64,000 nt of DNA, from contig CAIYZV010000328.1 of NCBI GenBank assembly GCA_903930765.1, positions 1 to 64,000 of the forward strand, read 5' to 3'. A program made the translations under genes and the position numbers. The notes below the pieces were generated by a model. It was given only the letters and a program-made list of their open reading frames with translations. It was not told the DNA's origin and searched no databases. This DNA comes from an uncultured Pirellula sp. (GTDB lineage: Bacteria > Planctomycetota > Planctomycetia > Pirellulales > Pirellulaceae). Below, in pieces: positions 1-59,534 of this stretch. How positions within the stretch are numbered: the first letter of the stretch is position 1; the number at the start of each line of letters is the position of its first letter.

Positions 1-200
1 TCCCTCCGCTCTCACTCTTGATTTTTCCACGAAAACCCCGGGTTCTTCTAAAGGATCTGGGGTTTTTTCGTAGGCCGTGCTAGCACCCCCGCGACCTGTT
101 TCCACAGCACACTTCGGCACCTTTTTACCCCCAAAAGCACCCTGCGCGCTGTAGTTTGCGCTGTAGGCAGGTGGGGTAGAATCCCAGCCCTGTGCAGCCA

Positions 201-1100
201 AAAACCAGCTATCGCAAACCCCTTCACGACAAGGGACTGTCGTGCTACTTTGGGCCCGCAATGTAGAGCAGTTGTCCTCAACTGCTCTCGCCAGGAGCCA
301 AAAACGATTATGACAATCGTCCCACCACTTGGATCCAAGGCTTTCCCTTCGCGGCTTCGCGCCTTCGCGTGAAAATGATCGGAGTACATTGTGGCACGAC
401 GCTCCGCCGTCGTTTACTCCCCAAGACTATTCGCCTAGAAATGATCCAGGGGTTTAGCCCTGAGATCGCAGAACCTTTCACGACAAGGGACTGTCGTACC
501 ACGATGGGTCCGCAATGTAGAGCCGTTGCCCCAACTGCTCATCGCCAGGAGCCGGAACGATTGAGACAATCGTTCTACAATATGTTGTTCGCTGCGCTCG
601 AGCAGGATAGCGGTCAGGATCTTTAGCAAGATCCACTACCATTCTCTTCGCGTTAGCCTTCGCGTCTTCGCGCCTTCGCGTGAGTTTGTTCGAGGGTTAC
701 GGGCCAGCTATCGCGCAGCCTTTCACGACAGAGACTGTCGTACCACAATGGGGCCGCAATGTAGAGCCGTTGTCCCCAACTGCTCTCGCCAGGAGCCGGA
801 ACGATTGAGACAATCGTTCTACAATAGGTTGTTCGCTGCGCTCGAGCAGGCTCGCGGTCGGGATCTTTAGCAAGATCCACCACATACTCTTCCCGTTACT
901 CTTCGCGTCTTCGCGCCTTCGCGTGAGTTTGTTCGAGGGTTATGGGCCAGCTATCGCGCAGCCTTTCACGACAGAGACTGTCGTACCACGATGGGGCCGC
1001 AATGTAGAGCCGTTGTCCCCAACTGCTCTCGCCAGGAGCCAAAAACGATTACGACAATCGTCCACTATCAAGTTGCTCGCTGCGCTCGAGCAACTGCTAC
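201..1100. repeat. Array of four ~245-bp imperfect repeat units made of consecutive hairpins
   Basis: No gene is supported from 1 to 1116. Four related units begin near 205, 463, 704 and 948 (spacings about 250, 244, 244). Each unit holds palindromes in fixed order: ACGACA-loop-TGTCGT, AGAGC(A/C)GTTG-loop-CAACTGCTCT, (A)ACGATT-loop-AATCGT(T), and a stem around GCTGCGCTCGAGCA. Units 2 and 3 add GGATCTT-TAGC-AAGATCC. They are separated by runs of the direct motif CTTCGCG. The first and third palindromes share the loop GAGAC in units 2-3 (or variants ending in GAC) although their stems differ. Small ORFs across the array are shadows of the repeat. Positions 1-200 show nothing recognisable. Function is unknown: a REP-like dispersed element, a structured RNA or a transcription-end region of nrdR are all possible. 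Confidence 0.85.
225..320. repeat. Three consecutive hairpins of repeat unit 1
   Basis: Perfect inverted repeats lie at 225-244 (CACGACA/TGTCGTG, loop AGGGAC), 265-288 (AGAGCAGTTG/CAACTGCTCT, loop TCCT) and 304-320 (ACGATT/AATCGT, loop ATGAC). The middle stem is fully paired only in this unit. In the other three units a single A-to-C change leaves one mismatch. This is the clearest example of the unit's architecture. Confidence 0.8.
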
Positions 1101-1116
1101 ACGGGTACGAGACGAC

Positions 1117-1686
1117 CTAGTCCTTCTTCTTTCTAATCGGCCCTTTGGGTGGATCCTCAGGCGGGTCTTGCGGACGATCTTTGGAACTGTCTTTCGGAAT
1201 GTCCTTCGGCGGAGTTCTCGTAGGAGTTTTCGGCTGCTCAGGAGACAGGATCGGGGTCAATTCTTTAACAAAGTCTTGCGCGTCGCGAAAGCTACGGTAG
1301 ACGCTCGCGAACCGCACGAAGGCGACTTCGTCGAGCTTTCGAAGATACTGCATGCAAAGGTTACCGATGTCCTCGGAATGGACTTCCCGTTCGTAATTAT
1401 CGAGGATGTAGGATTCGATCTCGATCGCAAGACGCTGGATCTCTTCGGCGTTGATTTTGCGTTTCCAACATGCGAGCGCCAAACCGCGTTCAATTTTAGC
1501 GCGACTGAAATCCTGGCATGTTCCGTCCCGCTTGCGAACTTGAAGCAAGCCTTCCACCCGTTCGTAGGTGGTGAATCGGCGTTTGCAGTGATTGCAAAAG
1601 CGACGCCGACGAATTGCCCGGCCATCCTCGACCAATCGAGAATCTCTCACGCCATCGTTATCGTTGCCACAGAATGGGCATCGCAT
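1117..1686 (-). CDS. nrdR: Transcriptional repressor NrdR
   Basis: NrdR is the zinc-finger/ATP-cone repressor of ribonucleotide reductase genes, binding NrdR boxes when loaded with (d)ATP. The start is placed at MRCPFCG because the family begins exactly there; the track ORF adds 61 unrelated residues upstream. The zinc ribbon uses CPFC (residues 3-6) and CNHC (31-34), followed by RRFTTYE and an ATP-cone domain to about residue 140 (VRKRDG, FRDAQDFVKEL). The protein is 189 aa against about 150-160 usual. The excess is a C-terminal tail rich in Pro, Lys and Asp (PPKDIPKDSSKD...). No nrd gene is in the window. The gene reads towards the hairpin array, so the array is its 3' flank. Confidence 0.95.
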   Translation of the reverse strand: MRCPFCGNDNDGVRDSRLVEDGRAIRRRRFCNHCKRRFTTYERVEGLLQVRKRDGTCQDFSRAKIERGLALACWKRKINAEEIQRLAIEIESYILDNYEREVHSEDIGNLCMQYLRKLDEVAFVRFASVYRSFRDAQDFVKELTPILSPEQPKTPTRTPPKDIPKDSSKDRPQDPPEDPPKGPIRKKKD

Positions 1687-1975
1687 GTAACCCGCCGCGT
1701 CCGTTAAGGAGTATCCTGAGGAATTTCGGTTCGCACACTTGGGCGAGATTGTCGCATACCTGAGGCAGGAATCAAGCCACTGCGTGCGCGGTGTTCCACC
1801 TGTGGAATCCAGCAGGTGGCAGCACCGCGATTGGTCGCAACTATCCCAAGGGGAACTGGAATGAACCACGAACTATCCGAAATGCGTACAATGGCGCGGA
1901 AATCGCTATTTTGATTCTCCCCGCAATCAATTTTCTGACAGAACTCGCTTGAATACCAACGATGGAATACCAACG

Positions 1976-2695
1976 ATGGAACCGATGAACCAATCCGAAC
2001 CAATTGCGAATCGAATGGGAGAAGTGCTGGCTACGCCTCATTCGGGTAGCCAATCAAATCTGGGTGCCGAAGGGGGAGCCGGGGTGGAAATTGCCGATGG
2101 GCGAGCGAACCCCAAACCGTCGTACCGCTATCTTATTTTCGCGGGCTTGTTCATGCTCGTCGGCCTGAGTTTTTTGATCTTCCTCGGAAGGGAGAGAACG
2201 AAAATCGCCGGGCAGCCCATCGGTGACTTGGATTTGAAGCCATTGCTCAACGTCGAGAATCGGCTCTCCAACCAAGACTTAATGGGCAAATGGGTTGTGT
2301 TGCATTTTTGGGGGCCGTGGTTCCCTCCGTGCGCCGCTGAGCTAGAGGACATCGCCAAGCTTCAGCAAAAGTATCAAGACAGCACCGAGGTCGCTGTGAT
2401 CAGCGTATCGTGCGGGAGCACGTCGCCGGAGAAACTCGATGACTTGGATTTTGATACCAAACGTGTGATGCAAACGATCGATGGCCGACTCCCTGTCTAC
2501 TGCGACCCGACCGAATACTCGCGGGTCCAAGTCGCCAACTTGCTCGGCCGAAAAGGGTTCTCCTACCCCACGACATTGTTGCTCGATCCGAAGCTTCGAG
2601 TGGTCGACTTTTGGGTTGGGGTATCCGGCGAAGGAGCCATCGATCGCGCATTAACCTCCGCGATGAACAAGCAAGGAGTGAAATCGAACCCATGA
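1976..2695 (+). CDS. Membrane-anchored thioredoxin-fold protein lacking the first active-site cysteine
   Basis: A 239-aa protein with one N-terminal membrane segment (YLIFAGLFMLVGLSFLIFLG) and an outward thioredoxin-like domain of the TlpA/ResA type. The usual active site FWATWCxPC appears here as FWGPWFPPC. Residue 116 is Phe (codon TTC) where the nucleophilic Cys belongs, and only the second Cys (119) remains. The cis-Pro segment (FSYPTTLLLD) is conserved, so the fold looks intact. The track start is a TTG at 1949; ATG 1976 is preferred, though ATG 1985 is possible and no strong SD is visible. Its stop overlaps the pdxA start as ATGA, so the two are probably co-translated. Dithiol oxidoreductase activity is unlikely; a binding, chaperone-like or monothiol role is inferred. 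Confidence 0.8.
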   Translation: MEPMNQSEPIANRMGEVLATPHSGSQSNLGAEGGAGVEIADGRANPKPSYRYLIFAGLFMLVGLSFLIFLGRERTKIAGQPIGDLDLKPLLNVENRLSNQDLMGKWVVLHFWGPWFPPCAAELEDIAKLQQKYQDSTEVAVISVSCGSTSPEKLDDLDFDTKRVMQTIDGRLPVYCDPTEYSRVQVANLLGRKGFSYPTTLLLDPKLRVVDFWVGVSGEGAIDRALTSAMNKQGVKSNP

Positions 2696-3837
2696 CCCAA
2701 GCGGGGATTAGGCCAAAGATCGGCATCACCATGGGAGATCCCACCGGGATCGGGCCGGAGATTCTCGTGGGAGCACTGGCGTCAGGCCAACTGGAACAGG
2801 AGTGCCACCCGATTGCAATCGGTCGCTCGAAGGTTCTTCGAGCAGCCGCCTCAACGATGCGAGCTGAGATCGAGATCCGGTCGTTTGATACATGCCAACA
2901 AGCGATCGATGCTTCGCTGCAGCGAAACGGGAAAAGGGACCGCACTGTTTTTTGTGTTGAGACAGGGCTAGCGGAAGCGGACCGTGCTACGGAGCCAAGA
3001 ATCGACGCACGTGGTGGCCAAGCCGCCTATGATTGCTTGATCGCCGGAACTCAATTGTGTTTGGATGGAACGCTTGATGCCGTAGTAACTGCACCACTCC
3101 ATAAAAAAGCATTGCAGTTGGCGGGTCATGACTGGCCGGGTCACACGGAACTGCTCGCGCATCTTTGTGGTACGCATGAATCGGCGATGATGCTGTACCT
3201 GCCACCGAGCAACCTCAAACCTACAAATACCGAGGAGACAACAAACCAAGCGGAGCCTTCAATGAAGCCACACCGCGGAGGCCCTGCGGGGCTTGGCGTC
3301 GTTCACGTCACTTTGCACATGGCCCTTCGAGACGTATTCGCCAATCTGACGATCCCAGCCATCTCGGAGAAAATCGACTTGGCTCACGCTTACTTTTCGC
3401 GTTTGCGCAAGTCGATGCAGTTGGTCGATGAACATGGCAGCACCAGCCCTCGCATCGCGGTCGCCGCTCTGAATCCGCACGGGGGGGAGCATGGACGATT
3501 CGGAGACGAAGAAATCCGAATCATCGAGCCCGCGGTGCGACTGGCTCAGCAGCGCGGCATCCGGGTCGAAGGTCCATTGCCGGTAGACACGTTGATGCCA
3601 AAAGCGGTACGCGGTGAGTACGATGCCGTGGTGGCGATGTATCACGACCAAGGTCACATTGCGTTGAAGTTGCTCGACATGTTCGAAGCGGTGAATATCA
3701 CCTTGGGATTGCCCATCATCCGTACCAGCGTCGCGCATGGAACCGCCCACGATATCGCGTGGCAGGGTATCGCAAAGCCGGGTGGGATGACTCAAGCCGT
3801 CTTGGCTGCGGCGAGGCTCGCCCGAAGCCGCGAATAG
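2692..3837 (+). CDS. pdxA: 4-hydroxythreonine-4-phosphate dehydrogenase PdxA
   Basis: PdxA oxidises 4-phosphohydroxy-L-threonine with NAD(P) in the DXP-dependent pathway to pyridoxal 5'-phosphate. The 381-aa product starts at ATG 2692, just before GITMGDPTGIGPEI. The 27 upstream track residues are frame overlap with the preceding gene. Family blocks are present: TAPLHKKAL, GHTELLA, ALNPHGGEHG, AMYHDQGHIALK (metal-ligand His) and TSVAHGTAHDIA. An insertion of about 25 residues (around TNTEETTNQAEPSMKPHRGG) sits between the MMLYLP strand and VVHVTLHM. It explains the length beyond the usual ~330 aa. It shares an ATGA overlap with the thioredoxin-like gene. PdxA paralogues can act on other phosphorylated hydroxyacids (PdxA2), so substrate is inferred from the family. 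Confidence 0.93.
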   Translation: MTQAGIRPKIGITMGDPTGIGPEILVGALASGQLEQECHPIAIGRSKVLRAAASTMRAEIEIRSFDTCQQAIDASLQRNGKRDRTVFCVETGLAEADRATEPRIDARGGQAAYDCLIAGTQLCLDGTLDAVVTAPLHKKALQLAGHDWPGHTELLAHLCGTHESAMMLYLPPSNLKPTNTEETTNQAEPSMKPHRGGPAGLGVVHVTLHMALRDVFANLTIPAISEKIDLAHAYFSRLRKSMQLVDEHGSTSPRIAVAALNPHGGEHGRFGDEEIRIIEPAVRLAQQRGIRVEGPLPVDTLMPKAVRGEYDAVVAMYHDQGHIALKLLDMFEAVNITLGLPIIRTSVAHGTAHDIAWQGIAKPGGMTQAVLAAARLARSRE

Positions 3838-17303: not shown

Positions 17304-17305
17304 TT

Positions 17306-17365
17306 GATACCACCGATCTTGTTACCACCGATCTTGATACCACCGATCTTGATACCACCGACCTT
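17306..17365. repeat. Four tandem 15-bp repeats (GATACCACCGATCTT)
   Basis: Units lie at 17306-17320, 17321-17335 (one change), 17336-17350 and 17351-17365 (one change). They sit just upstream of the minus-strand ATG at 17303, between it and the metF stop. They would be in the leader of that mRNA if it starts further upstream. Confidence 0.92.
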
Positions 17366-24681: not shown

Positions 24682-26979
24682 TTACCGCGCCGTGCGGCTC
24701 GCTTTTCTCGCTTCATCCGCGGCAGCCTTGATGGCTTTCGCCCGGTTCGGATTGTCGGCTTGGTCGGTCAACTCGTACAGAAAGCGGCTTGGGTAAGTCG
24801 GCCGAGGTTTTCCCCACTTGAATCGGCTCAAGGGCAACGTCAGCGCTAATTCGTCTTGAGCCCGAGTGACACCGACATAACAAAGGCGACGTTCTTCATC
24901 AACGCTATCGCCTTCCTCAGTGATTGAGCGGCGGTGAGGCAGTACGCCTTCCTCCATACCCACCATGTAGACGATCGGAAACTCAAGCCCTTTCGCGCTG
25001 TGATAGGTCATCAGCGAAACTGCGTTCATGCCTGCGTTCTTGTCCTTGGAACTTCCGTACTCGCGTCCTGACAGCGTTACGCTCGCCAAAAAATCGCCCA
25101 AGTTAGGCTCGGTCGCATCTTGTTCGTACTGCGCGACGGCGTTGAGCACCGCCTCCAGCGAACCGATCCGCATGACAGCTTCATCGGCATCCGTATAAAG
25201 ACGCTCAATCTCCTGCCGGTACTTGAGATGCTCAATCAAATGATGGACCGCATCGGTCATGCAGCCCGATTCCTCCTCCAGTTCCATTTCCTCGTCGCTC
25301 AGTTTTTCAGAGATATCATTTTCCAAGATGGCATCGACCACATCGATGCCATCCTCTCCTTCGGCAGCCTGTTCTAAGTCTGCTACATCGTCTACATCGT
25401 CTACATCGTCTACATCGTCTACATCGTCTACATCGTCTACATCGTCGTTATCGTCGCTAGCCAGTAATGGCAGGATTTTGCTGTCACCGAAATCCGATTG
25501 AGCCGCAAGTCCTTGCGTTGGCTCGCGAGCGTCGTCGCCGCCGGAGCCAAAGAGTTTTTCAAATTTTCGATTCAACGCGATCAAACTAGCAACGCCGCGC
25601 TCGGCAGCAGGAGAGAGTGTCGCAATGAACGCTGAATCGTGCATGATTTGCCAGATCGATTTCGATGTCGACACGGCTTGCTTGAGCAGTTTATCAACGC
25701 TGCTTGCTCCCATGCCACGCGGTGGAACATTGATGACTCGCAGCAGCGCAAGCTCATCGTTTGGCTGATCGATCCAGCGCAGGTAGGCGAGAATATCTCG
25801 TACTTCTTTCCGATCAAAGAAGGATTGAGTGCCGGTGATCTTGTAGGGGACGTTGAGCCGACGAAGCTCAAGCTCAAAGGGTCTGGGCTGCTCGTTGGTT
25901 CGAAACAGGATCGCGAAATCCCCAGGAGCAACACCGCGATCTCGCTGTAGGCGCTGCGAGATCTCCTCGACAACTCCTTTGGCTTCCTCATTTTCACCAG
26001 GGAACTGCAGGACACGTGGAGGAGTGCCATTGCGACGCGCGGGCCGTAGGGTTTTTCCGTGGCGATTCTGGTTGAACGCGATCAGCCGATTGGCCATGGT
26101 CAGAATGGCGTCGGTCGAACGGTAATTCTCTTCAAGGCGAACCACCTTGGCTTCAGGCCAGTCATTCTTGAAGTTCAAAATGTGGCGTACCTCGGCGCCT
26201 CGCCATCCGTAAATGGATTGGTCATCGTCACCGACCACGCAAAGATTTCGATGGTCCTGCGCGAGAGTCTTGATAATTTTGTACTGAGTCCCGTTGGTGT
26301 CTTGGTACTCATCGACAAGCACATGGTCGTAACGCCCCGCCTCCACACGCCGGACATCTTCGTTTTCGGTCAAGAGTTGTTCGGCACAGACGAGCAAATC
26401 ATCGAAATCAAACGCTGCCTGTAGCTTGAGCGCTCTCTGATAACGCCTGAACGCGCTCGCTGCCACATGCTCCTTGTCATTGACCGCTTCGCCTTCCGCA
26501 CGCTCAGGACGCACCCCAGCGTTCTTCCATCGGCTAACAATGTTGAGAAAATCGGGTGGGGCCAACATGTCCTCGTGAACACGGATTTCACGGAGCACCG
26601 TCCGCGCCACACTCTCGGCGTCACTTCGATCGTAGATGGTGAACTTTTCTGGATACCCGAGAATGGAAGCATGCCGTTTTAGAATCTGCACGCAATGCGA
26701 GTGGAAGGTGCCGATCTGCGGACGCAGTGGAGCGGGTTGGCCACGGCGAACCCGCTTGGGAAGCTTCAACTGGTGCGAAATCCGCTCCTGCATTTCCATG
26801 GATGCTTTGTTGGTAAACGTCACCGCCAAGATTCGGTCCGGACGGGTACCATGCTTGATCAAATTCGCCACTCGGAACGTGACCACCCGAGTCTTACCCG
26901 TCCCCGCTCCTGCGAGGACCAGAAGGGGACCGGCCAAGGTATTGACTGCATCGTGTTGGGCTGGGTTCAAGTCTGCCAT
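24682..26979 (-). CDS. UvrD/PcrA-type superfamily 1A DNA helicase with acidic repeat insert
   Basis: A 765-aa 3'-5' helicase. Motifs in order: Q-motif LNPAQHDAV, Walker A VLAGAGTGKTR (24-30), Ia FTNKASMEMQERI, II VDEYQDTN, III VVGDDDQSIYGWRGA, IV ENYRST, and V/VI MTYHSAKGLEFPIVYMVG and YVGVTRAQDEL. Between the 2A/2B parts is a 60-residue acidic, repeat-rich insert (seven DDV copies, then EGEDG) not found in Rep, UvrD or PcrA. The C-terminus lacks the long UvrD tail. ATG 26979 is used since the family starts at LNPAQ. The start lies about 370 bp from rplU on the other strand. Confidence 0.94.
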   Translation of the reverse strand: MADLNPAQHDAVNTLAGPLLVLAGAGTGKTRVVTFRVANLIKHGTRPDRILAVTFTNKASMEMQERISHQLKLPKRVRRGQPAPLRPQIGTFHSHCVQILKRHASILGYPEKFTIYDRSDAESVARTVLREIRVHEDMLAPPDFLNIVSRWKNAGVRPERAEGEAVNDKEHVAASAFRRYQRALKLQAAFDFDDLLVCAEQLLTENEDVRRVEAGRYDHVLVDEYQDTNGTQYKIIKTLAQDHRNLCVVGDDDQSIYGWRGAEVRHILNFKNDWPEAKVVRLEENYRSTDAILTMANRLIAFNQNRHGKTLRPARRNGTPPRVLQFPGENEEAKGVVEEISQRLQRDRGVAPGDFAILFRTNEQPRPFELELRRLNVPYKITGTQSFFDRKEVRDILAYLRWIDQPNDELALLRVINVPPRGMGASSVDKLLKQAVSTSKSIWQIMHDSAFIATLSPAAERGVASLIALNRKFEKLFGSGGDDAREPTQGLAAQSDFGDSKILPLLASDDNDDVDDVDDVDDVDDVDDVDDVADLEQAAEGEDGIDVVDAILENDISEKLSDEEMELEEESGCMTDAVHHLIEHLKYRQEIERLYTDADEAVMRIGSLEAVLNAVAQYEQDATEPNLGDFLASVTLSGREYGSSKDKNAGMNAVSLMTYHSAKGLEFPIVYMVGMEEGVLPHRRSITEEGDSVDEERRLCYVGVTRAQDELALTLPLSRFKWGKPRPTYPSRFLYELTDQADNPNRAKAIKAAADEARKASRTAR
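25382..25444 (-). repeat. Seven tandem 9-bp coding repeats (DDV) in the helicase gene
   Basis: GCTACATCG followed by six exact TCTACATCG units on the plus strand encode (DDV)7 on the minus strand. Units are phase-neutral, so copy-number change keeps the frame. Confidence 0.95.
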
Positions 26980-59019: not shown

Positions 59020-59534
59020 GCCCCATCGCGCACTGTCCCGCAATCGCATCGAGCCCTTATCCCCCACGCGCTCAGATCCGTCAGCCAGTGCACCTAGAGC
59101 GATTGGCTCGGCATTTGCTATCTCCCAGTCGTCCCATTCGGGGGGGCCTTTCCTATCGGCTGACTGTCCGAGTTCCCCGGTAATTTGCAAGGAAACCATT
59201 GCCGCTTGCTTGATGGGATGCCCGCGTTTAGTGCATCAAGCGTCCCAGGGTAGCCTTGATTTTCAGCATTTCCCCCCCACCAACAACAAGCACGTAAACA
59301 ATTCCACTGGATTCTGAAGCTTGTCCGCAGGTACAAATAAGACCCACCGAGTCCCACCCACCGTCAGGTTTTTCCTAATCACGCTTCCCCGCATCCCAGC
59401 GATACAGTATCCCAGCGATACAGTATCCCAGCGATTCAGCATCCAGCGATTCAGCATCCAGCGATTCAGTGCGAACGATGAAAAGCCAGTGCGAACCATG
59501 ACTAGCAACCGTCAATCCCACGGACCTCTCCGCG
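59020..59534. other. Intergenic region with a tandem repeat
   Basis: A 515-base gene-free stretch. It contains the tandem repeat at 59397-59473 and nothing else I recognise. Promoters of the ATP-grasp gene should lie near its right end. Confidence 0.6.
59397..59473. repeat. Five tandem copies of a 15-16-bp unit (CAGCGAT[A/T]CAG...)
   Basis: Two 16-bp units CAGCGATACAGTATCC (59397 and 59413) are followed by 15-bp units CAGCGATTCAGCATC at 59429 and 59444 and a diverged fifth. They lie in a non-coding region about 60 nt before the ATP-grasp start. Confidence 0.92.

Follow-up and report, generated by a model that had tools for sequence, protein, structure and literature searches.

A mosaic cluster of GTAG-tagged REP hairpins from several RAYT-linked families in a Pirellula-like planctomycete

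Results

Tagged hairpins in tandem units downstream of nrdR

Positions 201–1100 of the window (the whole 64,000-nucleotide stretch of Pirellula DNA analysed here) are occupied by four units of ~245 bp, which start at 205, 459, 704 and 947 and are spaced by 254, 245 and 243 bp. The units lie just past the 3′ end of nrdR (1117–1869, minus strand), the gene for a repressor with an ATP-cone and a zinc-ribbon. Across the units the hairpin types follow a fixed order, A (minus strand), B (plus), C (minus) and E (minus), which is then repeated. A preliminary description of this DNA had recognized the four units and their common hairpin order, as we do, but had described the palindromes as perfect; for the GAGCMGTTG...CAACTGCTC hairpin this holds in unit 1 only.

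REP elements were recognized as palindromes whose stem pairs fully or almost fully over 6–13 bp and encloses a short loop, with GTAG or GTGG at a distance of 0–1 nt from the 5′ foot. The hairpins of the window have stems of 6–9 bp, loops of 3–6 nt and GTAG or GTGG at 0–1 nt from the 5′ foot, and the tag is present at every main hairpin when it is read on the correct strand. Positions 201–1100 contain 12 tagged hairpins, versus a mean of 0.03 and a maximum of 1 in 300 dinucleotide shuffles; the other 62.9 kb of the window contain three.

Type A, in this array always on the minus strand (consensus GTRG-(C)ACGACA-GTCYC(T)), is found at 225–248 in unit 1 (GTAG-CACGACA-GTCCCT-TGTCGTG), at 480–502 in unit 2 (GTGG-t-ACGACA-GTCCCT-TGTCGT), and as GTGG-t-ACGACA-GTCTC-TGTCGT at 725–746 and 968–989 in units 3 and 4. 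Type B, on the plus strand (consensus GTAG-AGCMGTT-GTCCYC), occupies 263–288 in unit 1 (GTAG-AGCAGTT-GTCCTC-AACTGCT(CT)), is degenerate at 517–541 in unit 2 (GTAGAGCCGTTGCCCCAACTGCTCA), and recurs with one stem mismatch at 761–786 and 1004–1029 in units 3 and 4 (both GTAG-AGCCGTT-GTCCCC-AACTGCT). Type C, again on the minus strand (consensus GTAG-AACGATT-GTCTC), reads GTGG-g-ACGATT-GTCAT-AATCGT at 304–325 in unit 1, GTAG-AACGATT-GTCTC-AATCGTT at 555–578 and 799–822 in units 2 and 3, and GTGG-ACGATT-GTCGT-AATCGT at 1044–1065 in unit 4. Minus-strand copies of type E (consensus GTRG-T-GGATCTT-GCTA) are located at 617–639 in unit 2 (GTAG-t-GGATCTT-GCTA-AAGATCC) and 861–883 in unit 3 (GTGG-t-GGATCTT-GCTA-AAGATCC). 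The plus-strand hairpin at 391–413 (GTGG-CACGACG-CTCCGC-CGTCGT; consensus GTGG-CACGACG-CTCCGC) is a REP of a second RAYT family. A further tagged hairpin, type D, at 1071–1100 on the minus strand (GTAG-c-AGTTGCTCG-AGCGCAG-CGAGCAACT), is of uncertain membership; degenerate relatives of it are located at 585–604 and 829–848.

The feature that had first drawn attention to the array was a GAGAC loop shared by two unrelated stems. Perfect hairpins of this kind do exist: ACGACA-GAGAC-TGTCGT at 725–741 and 968–984, and GAACGATT-GAGAC-AATCGTTC at 555–575 and 799–819. Both stems carry GAGAC together in unit 3 only, and the remaining copies have AGGGAC (units 1 and 2), ATGAC (unit 1) or ACGAC (unit 4). 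The sharing of the loop thus stands, but a strictly fixed pentamer does not. What was called a GAGAC/GTCTC loop consists of TCT closed by a G-C pair, and the middle palindrome at 263–288 has the common loop too, as GTCCTC on the plus strand. The loops of types A, B and C all start with GTC and continue mostly in pyrimidines; the actual form is GTC-Y-C, decaying to GTCAT, GTCGT and GTCTT. That first reading overlooked the GTAG foot, as well as the strand on which the hairpins are to be read and the link to RAYT genes.

The unit also contains a triple CTTCGCG motif (CTTCGCGTCTTCGCGCCTTCGCGTGA; window 646–682 and 901–925), which is dispersed on its own elsewhere in the genome. On contig C74 (L283, 1–650) the same motif forms a separate tandem array of ~208 bp with an inverse form, and the 6 kb read around that array contain no GTAG-tagged hairpin and no RAYT. 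Unrelated short tandem repeats occur in the window at 17304–17365 (period of 15 bp), 25383–25446 (9 bp) and 59391–59469 (16 bp). A CRISPR array was considered and rejected: the repeats form a mosaic of palindromes with a spacing of ~245 bp.

RAYT genes flanked by the same hairpins

Three genes for REP-associated tyrosine transposases (RAYTs) are present in the genome, each flanked by one REP family of the window. The gene at C347:1067–1768 (233 aa) lies between groups of four and three REPs, belonging to type B and to a stem variant, AACAGCT, with the loop GTCCTC in all but one; the palindrome of 263–288 recurs there in identical form. The gene at C269:2299–2967 is flanked by CACGACG-CTCCGC REPs, including a palindrome identical to that of 391–413, and the gene at C168:8830–9399 by GGATCTT-GCTA REPs of type E, with a palindrome identical to that of 617–639. 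The window cluster therefore consists of the REPs of three RAYT families together with types A and C.

Profile matches, similarity to a known structure, active-site residues and the fold of a homologue identify the three proteins as RAYT/TnpA-REP. Their sole NCBIfam match is REP_Tyr_transpos (NF047646), at 65.7, 50.1 and 39.6 bits against a curated cut-off of 80 bits, and two of the three exceed the cut-off of Pfam Y1_Tnp. A sequence match links them to PDB 4er8 (1.9e-5), the structure of E. coli TnpA-REP bound to a REP hairpin. The fold comparison used the predicted structure of a homologue from L109 (~72% identical), and its first match was again 4er8 (E 4.4e-6). In an alignment that includes the C347 and C269 proteins, without the C168 protein, H152, H154, Y212 and N216 are invariant, and the HUH motif, the catalytic tyrosine and an N four residues on are present. 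An IS200/IS605 element was rejected as an identity for these loci: N216 is invariant, with no Q after the tyrosine, and on either side lie dispersed clusters of REPs instead of the two ends of a single element.

L106 and L107 (on contigs C227 and C368), which are nearly identical to each other, represent another type of Y1 transposase; they lie near contig edges and score weakly against REP_Tyr_transpos. In the pieces read, neither is accompanied by GTAG hairpins, and both were set aside as partners of the hairpins.

For types A and C this genome, 96% complete as assembled, contains no matching RAYT, and their mover is therefore putative. The stem of type C does flank a RAYT in a congener (L077, genome G016), and a close variant, AGCGATT, is found at two further congener RAYTs (L076 and L078).

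Foot and loop are retained while stems change

To place the hairpins in a wider setting, we used a comparative set of 108 RAYT loci, mostly from Planctomycetota and Verrucomicrobiota. Among perfect stems of at least 8 bp at these loci, GTAG precedes 107, versus a mean of 3.8 per tetranucleotide; the next feet are GTCG (38), GTGG (33) and GGAG (32). The enrichment of GTCG and GGAG near RAYT genes (L073–L187; 38 and 32 versus 3.8) suggests that they are alternative feet in some RAYT lineages. The collected hairpins were selected for perfect pairing, which would make a covariation test on them circular; the tests of foot and loop are free of this problem.

Loops composed entirely of pyrimidines are found in 76% of the tagged hairpins versus 9% of background hairpins, the background being 100 hairpins from 269 kb of the same genome in stretches not picked for repeats. 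Untagged hairpins near RAYT genes are unsuitable as a loop control, as they are mixed with REPs that have GGAG and GTCG feet. Across the 108 loci the tagged loops are mostly TCC, TCT, TCCT, TCCC and TTC, and a minority of loci have others (GCC, TGT, TGC). Six loci (L096, L130, L150, L154, L163 and L176) have TTC, TTT, TGC or TGT in place of TCC or TCT, and are possibly separate recognition classes.

The stems behave differently from the loops. Partner stems at one RAYT can differ and have one loop per pair, as in TCCGCCGC/TCCGCCAC, ATCGATTG/AGCTATTG and AACAGCTG/AGCAGTTG; at 15 loci an identical loop sits on stems that differ in at least two pairs. Loops are shared by 78% of pairs of loci at RAYT identity of 60% or more (a bin of 9 pairs only), by 44% at 45–60%, and by 22–25% below. 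Identity of the stem drops faster, from 89% in the same 9-pair bin to 1% at 45–60% and 0% below. An enzyme that recognizes both loop and foot would be expected to leave this pattern, in which they are retained under changing stems. The sharing of a loop by unrelated stems is thus no peculiarity of this array: short pyrimidine loops recur around RAYT genes in planctomycetes and verrucomicrobia. This supports the suggestion that a protein recognizes the loop or that the hairpins arise by a common mechanism: the hairpins are REPs, and the protein would be the RAYT.

Dispersal in the genome and in related species

Searches of the genome that allowed few mismatches gave 18 matches of type B, 15 of type C and 9 of type A, and none for reversed-pattern controls. 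These counts are modest for REPs and were perhaps lowered by assembly breaks. The composite unit or its parts are found beside different neighbouring genes on contigs C371, C147, C485, C117, C303, C160, C156 and C179. Many copies of the unit are located at contig ends (C328:1, C371, the end of C147, C485, C160, C179, C152 and C318); REP clusters are probably where the assembly broke, which makes the copy numbers underestimates.

Of 27 genomes of the genus, 14 have type C matches (reversed-pattern control, 0), and the composite unit or parts of it are also present in the congeners G018 and G024. In the 27 genomes, 62 of 90 one-mismatch copies of type C have the change GTCTC to GTCCC, so the loop does not vary freely outside this locus. 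G018, with an NrdR that is 97.6% identical, has about three units at the orthologous site beside nrdR, versus four in the window. REP bases at that site have changed at about the same rate as the spacers (27/259 versus 45/352), with no clear sign of purifying selection on these REP copies.

The four units are clearly duplicates, and a sister species has a different number of them at the orthologous site. One might accordingly suppose that a single ancestral segment was simply duplicated in tandem, and that the hairpins have their loop in common by chance or by descent from one hairpin. We consider this very improbable. Tandem duplication accounts for the four copies, but not for different stems that share a loop and a GTAG foot; the same pattern surrounds RAYT genes with unrelated stems in other genera, and copies on at least eight contigs, in many genomes and in RAYT flanks contradict it. 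The dispersed copies, in this genome and in the 14 genomes of the genus, show that the array is not a recent local duplication, the outcome that the preliminary description had named as fatal to the shared-loop idea.

The position just past the 3′ end of nrdR and the strong fold of one unit (z −5.6 relative to shuffles, computed as DNA) could also point to RNA: transcript-end stabilizers or small-RNA structures, recognized at the loop by an RNA-binding protein. For REPs in other systems an effect on the ends of mRNAs has been proposed (PMC3733652). This alternative appears unlikely. A search of Rfam with positions 1–3000 gave no match up to E = 1 and thus no support for RNA as the reader of the loop, which had been proposed as one option. 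An RNA element leaves the unpaired GTAG foot, the strongest common feature, without a role; units are found beside other genes on other contigs, and a single hairpin type occurs in both orientations across the genome.

Discussion

We conclude with high confidence that the array is a mosaic, BIME-like cluster of GTAG-tagged REPs from at least three RAYT-linked families of a Pirellula-like planctomycete. The hairpins are a planctomycete example of known REP elements and not a new kind of element. In the most likely mechanism, a REP that becomes single-stranded at the replication fork would fold into a hairpin. The cognate RAYT, an HUH/tyrosine single-strand transposase, would read the GTAG/GTGG foot and the short pyrimidine loop, cut near the REP, and then move or copy the element. 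Only pairing would be required of the stem, whose sequence could drift through compensating substitutions, with foot and loop retained. The composite A-B-C-D-E unit would have been multiplied in tandem and then spread to several intergenic sites.

The presence of types A and C can be understood in two ways within the REP reading. They may be relics of lost RAYTs, their common loop reflecting the ancestry of RAYT lineages and involving no cross-use by one enzyme; we give this variant of the main explanation even chances. It is favoured by the type C stem and its AGCGATT variant beside congener RAYTs, by G018 and G024, which keep arrays of A, B, C and E elements although the RAYT loci read there carry other REP types, and by the similar rates of change of REP bases and spacers at the nrdR site. 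Perfect, uniform copies of A and C persist in several genomes, however, which speaks against it; the identity of the hairpins as REPs is compatible with either outcome. A bolder proposition, which we advance tentatively and think rather doubtful, is that the RAYTs of planctomycetes and verrucomicrobia (PVC) use a common code, which consists of a GTAG foot and a pyrimidine loop and leaves the stem free, such that the C347 enzyme mobilizes A, B and C, and composite units arise from cross-use. Types A, B and C, three stems of a single genome whose loops are very similar, provide natural substrates for a direct test of RAYT recognition.

A striking repeat is thereby explained as a known domesticated-transposase system, extended in Planctomycetota. 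Much of this system has been described: GTAG REPs together with many RAYTs in Rhodopirellula baltica, hybrid dimers in Stenotrophomonas, and recognition of the loop for two RAYTs. Added here are a composite unit built from the REPs of several RAYT families and a PVC data set for comparing loops with stems.

The closest counterpart of the array is the GTAG REP super-family (Di Nocera et al. 2013, PMC3733652), which includes the REPs of R. baltica, where several REP families coexist with many RAYTs, and in which S. maltophilia has hybrid REP dimers of different families. The window shares with it the GTAG/GTGG foot, stems of 6–9 bp, short loops, dimers in opposite orientation, intergenic clusters downstream of genes, and a RAYT flanked by the same repeats, an arrangement known as a REPtron (PMC3733652, PMC6006769, PMC2817692). 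Unlike in that super-family, the REPs of at least three RAYT families are joined here with an unrelated dispersed repeat in one ~245-bp unit that is present four times.

In relation to IS200/IS605 elements (IS608, ISDra2), the HUH/Y1 transposase is related and there are likewise subterminal hairpins with a guide tetranucleotide, but no two fixed ends surround the transposase here. Four positions past the tyrosine these proteins have N, like E. coli TnpA-REP, where IS608 has Q. The E. coli REP/BIME system with TnpA-REP (4er8) resembles the present one in the RAYT fold, the GTAG foot, the alternating orientation and the mosaic units. It differs in that stems are perfect and the loop is conserved here, whereas in E. 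coli REPs a bulge is required and the enzyme does not read the loop (PMC8266576).

TnpA-REP cuts single-stranded REPs and requires the GTAG foot, and group 3 enzymes need particular loop bases of REPs that are perfect palindromes (Corneloup et al. 2021, PMC8266576). The group 3 pairs of Stenotrophomonas and Marinomonas share with our hairpins the perfect palindrome without a bulge and the GTAG foot; in those pairs the loop bases decide recognition and the stem sequence matters less (PMC8266576). That biochemistry comes from gammaproteobacteria only, and we found none for planctomycete RAYTs in the literature consulted; the planctomycete case is comparative and belongs to another phylum. The loops differ as well, being TCC, TCT, TCCT and TCCC here versus GCT and TTTA there. 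The set of 108 loci nevertheless agrees with the in vitro results from two gammaproteobacteria and broadens them.
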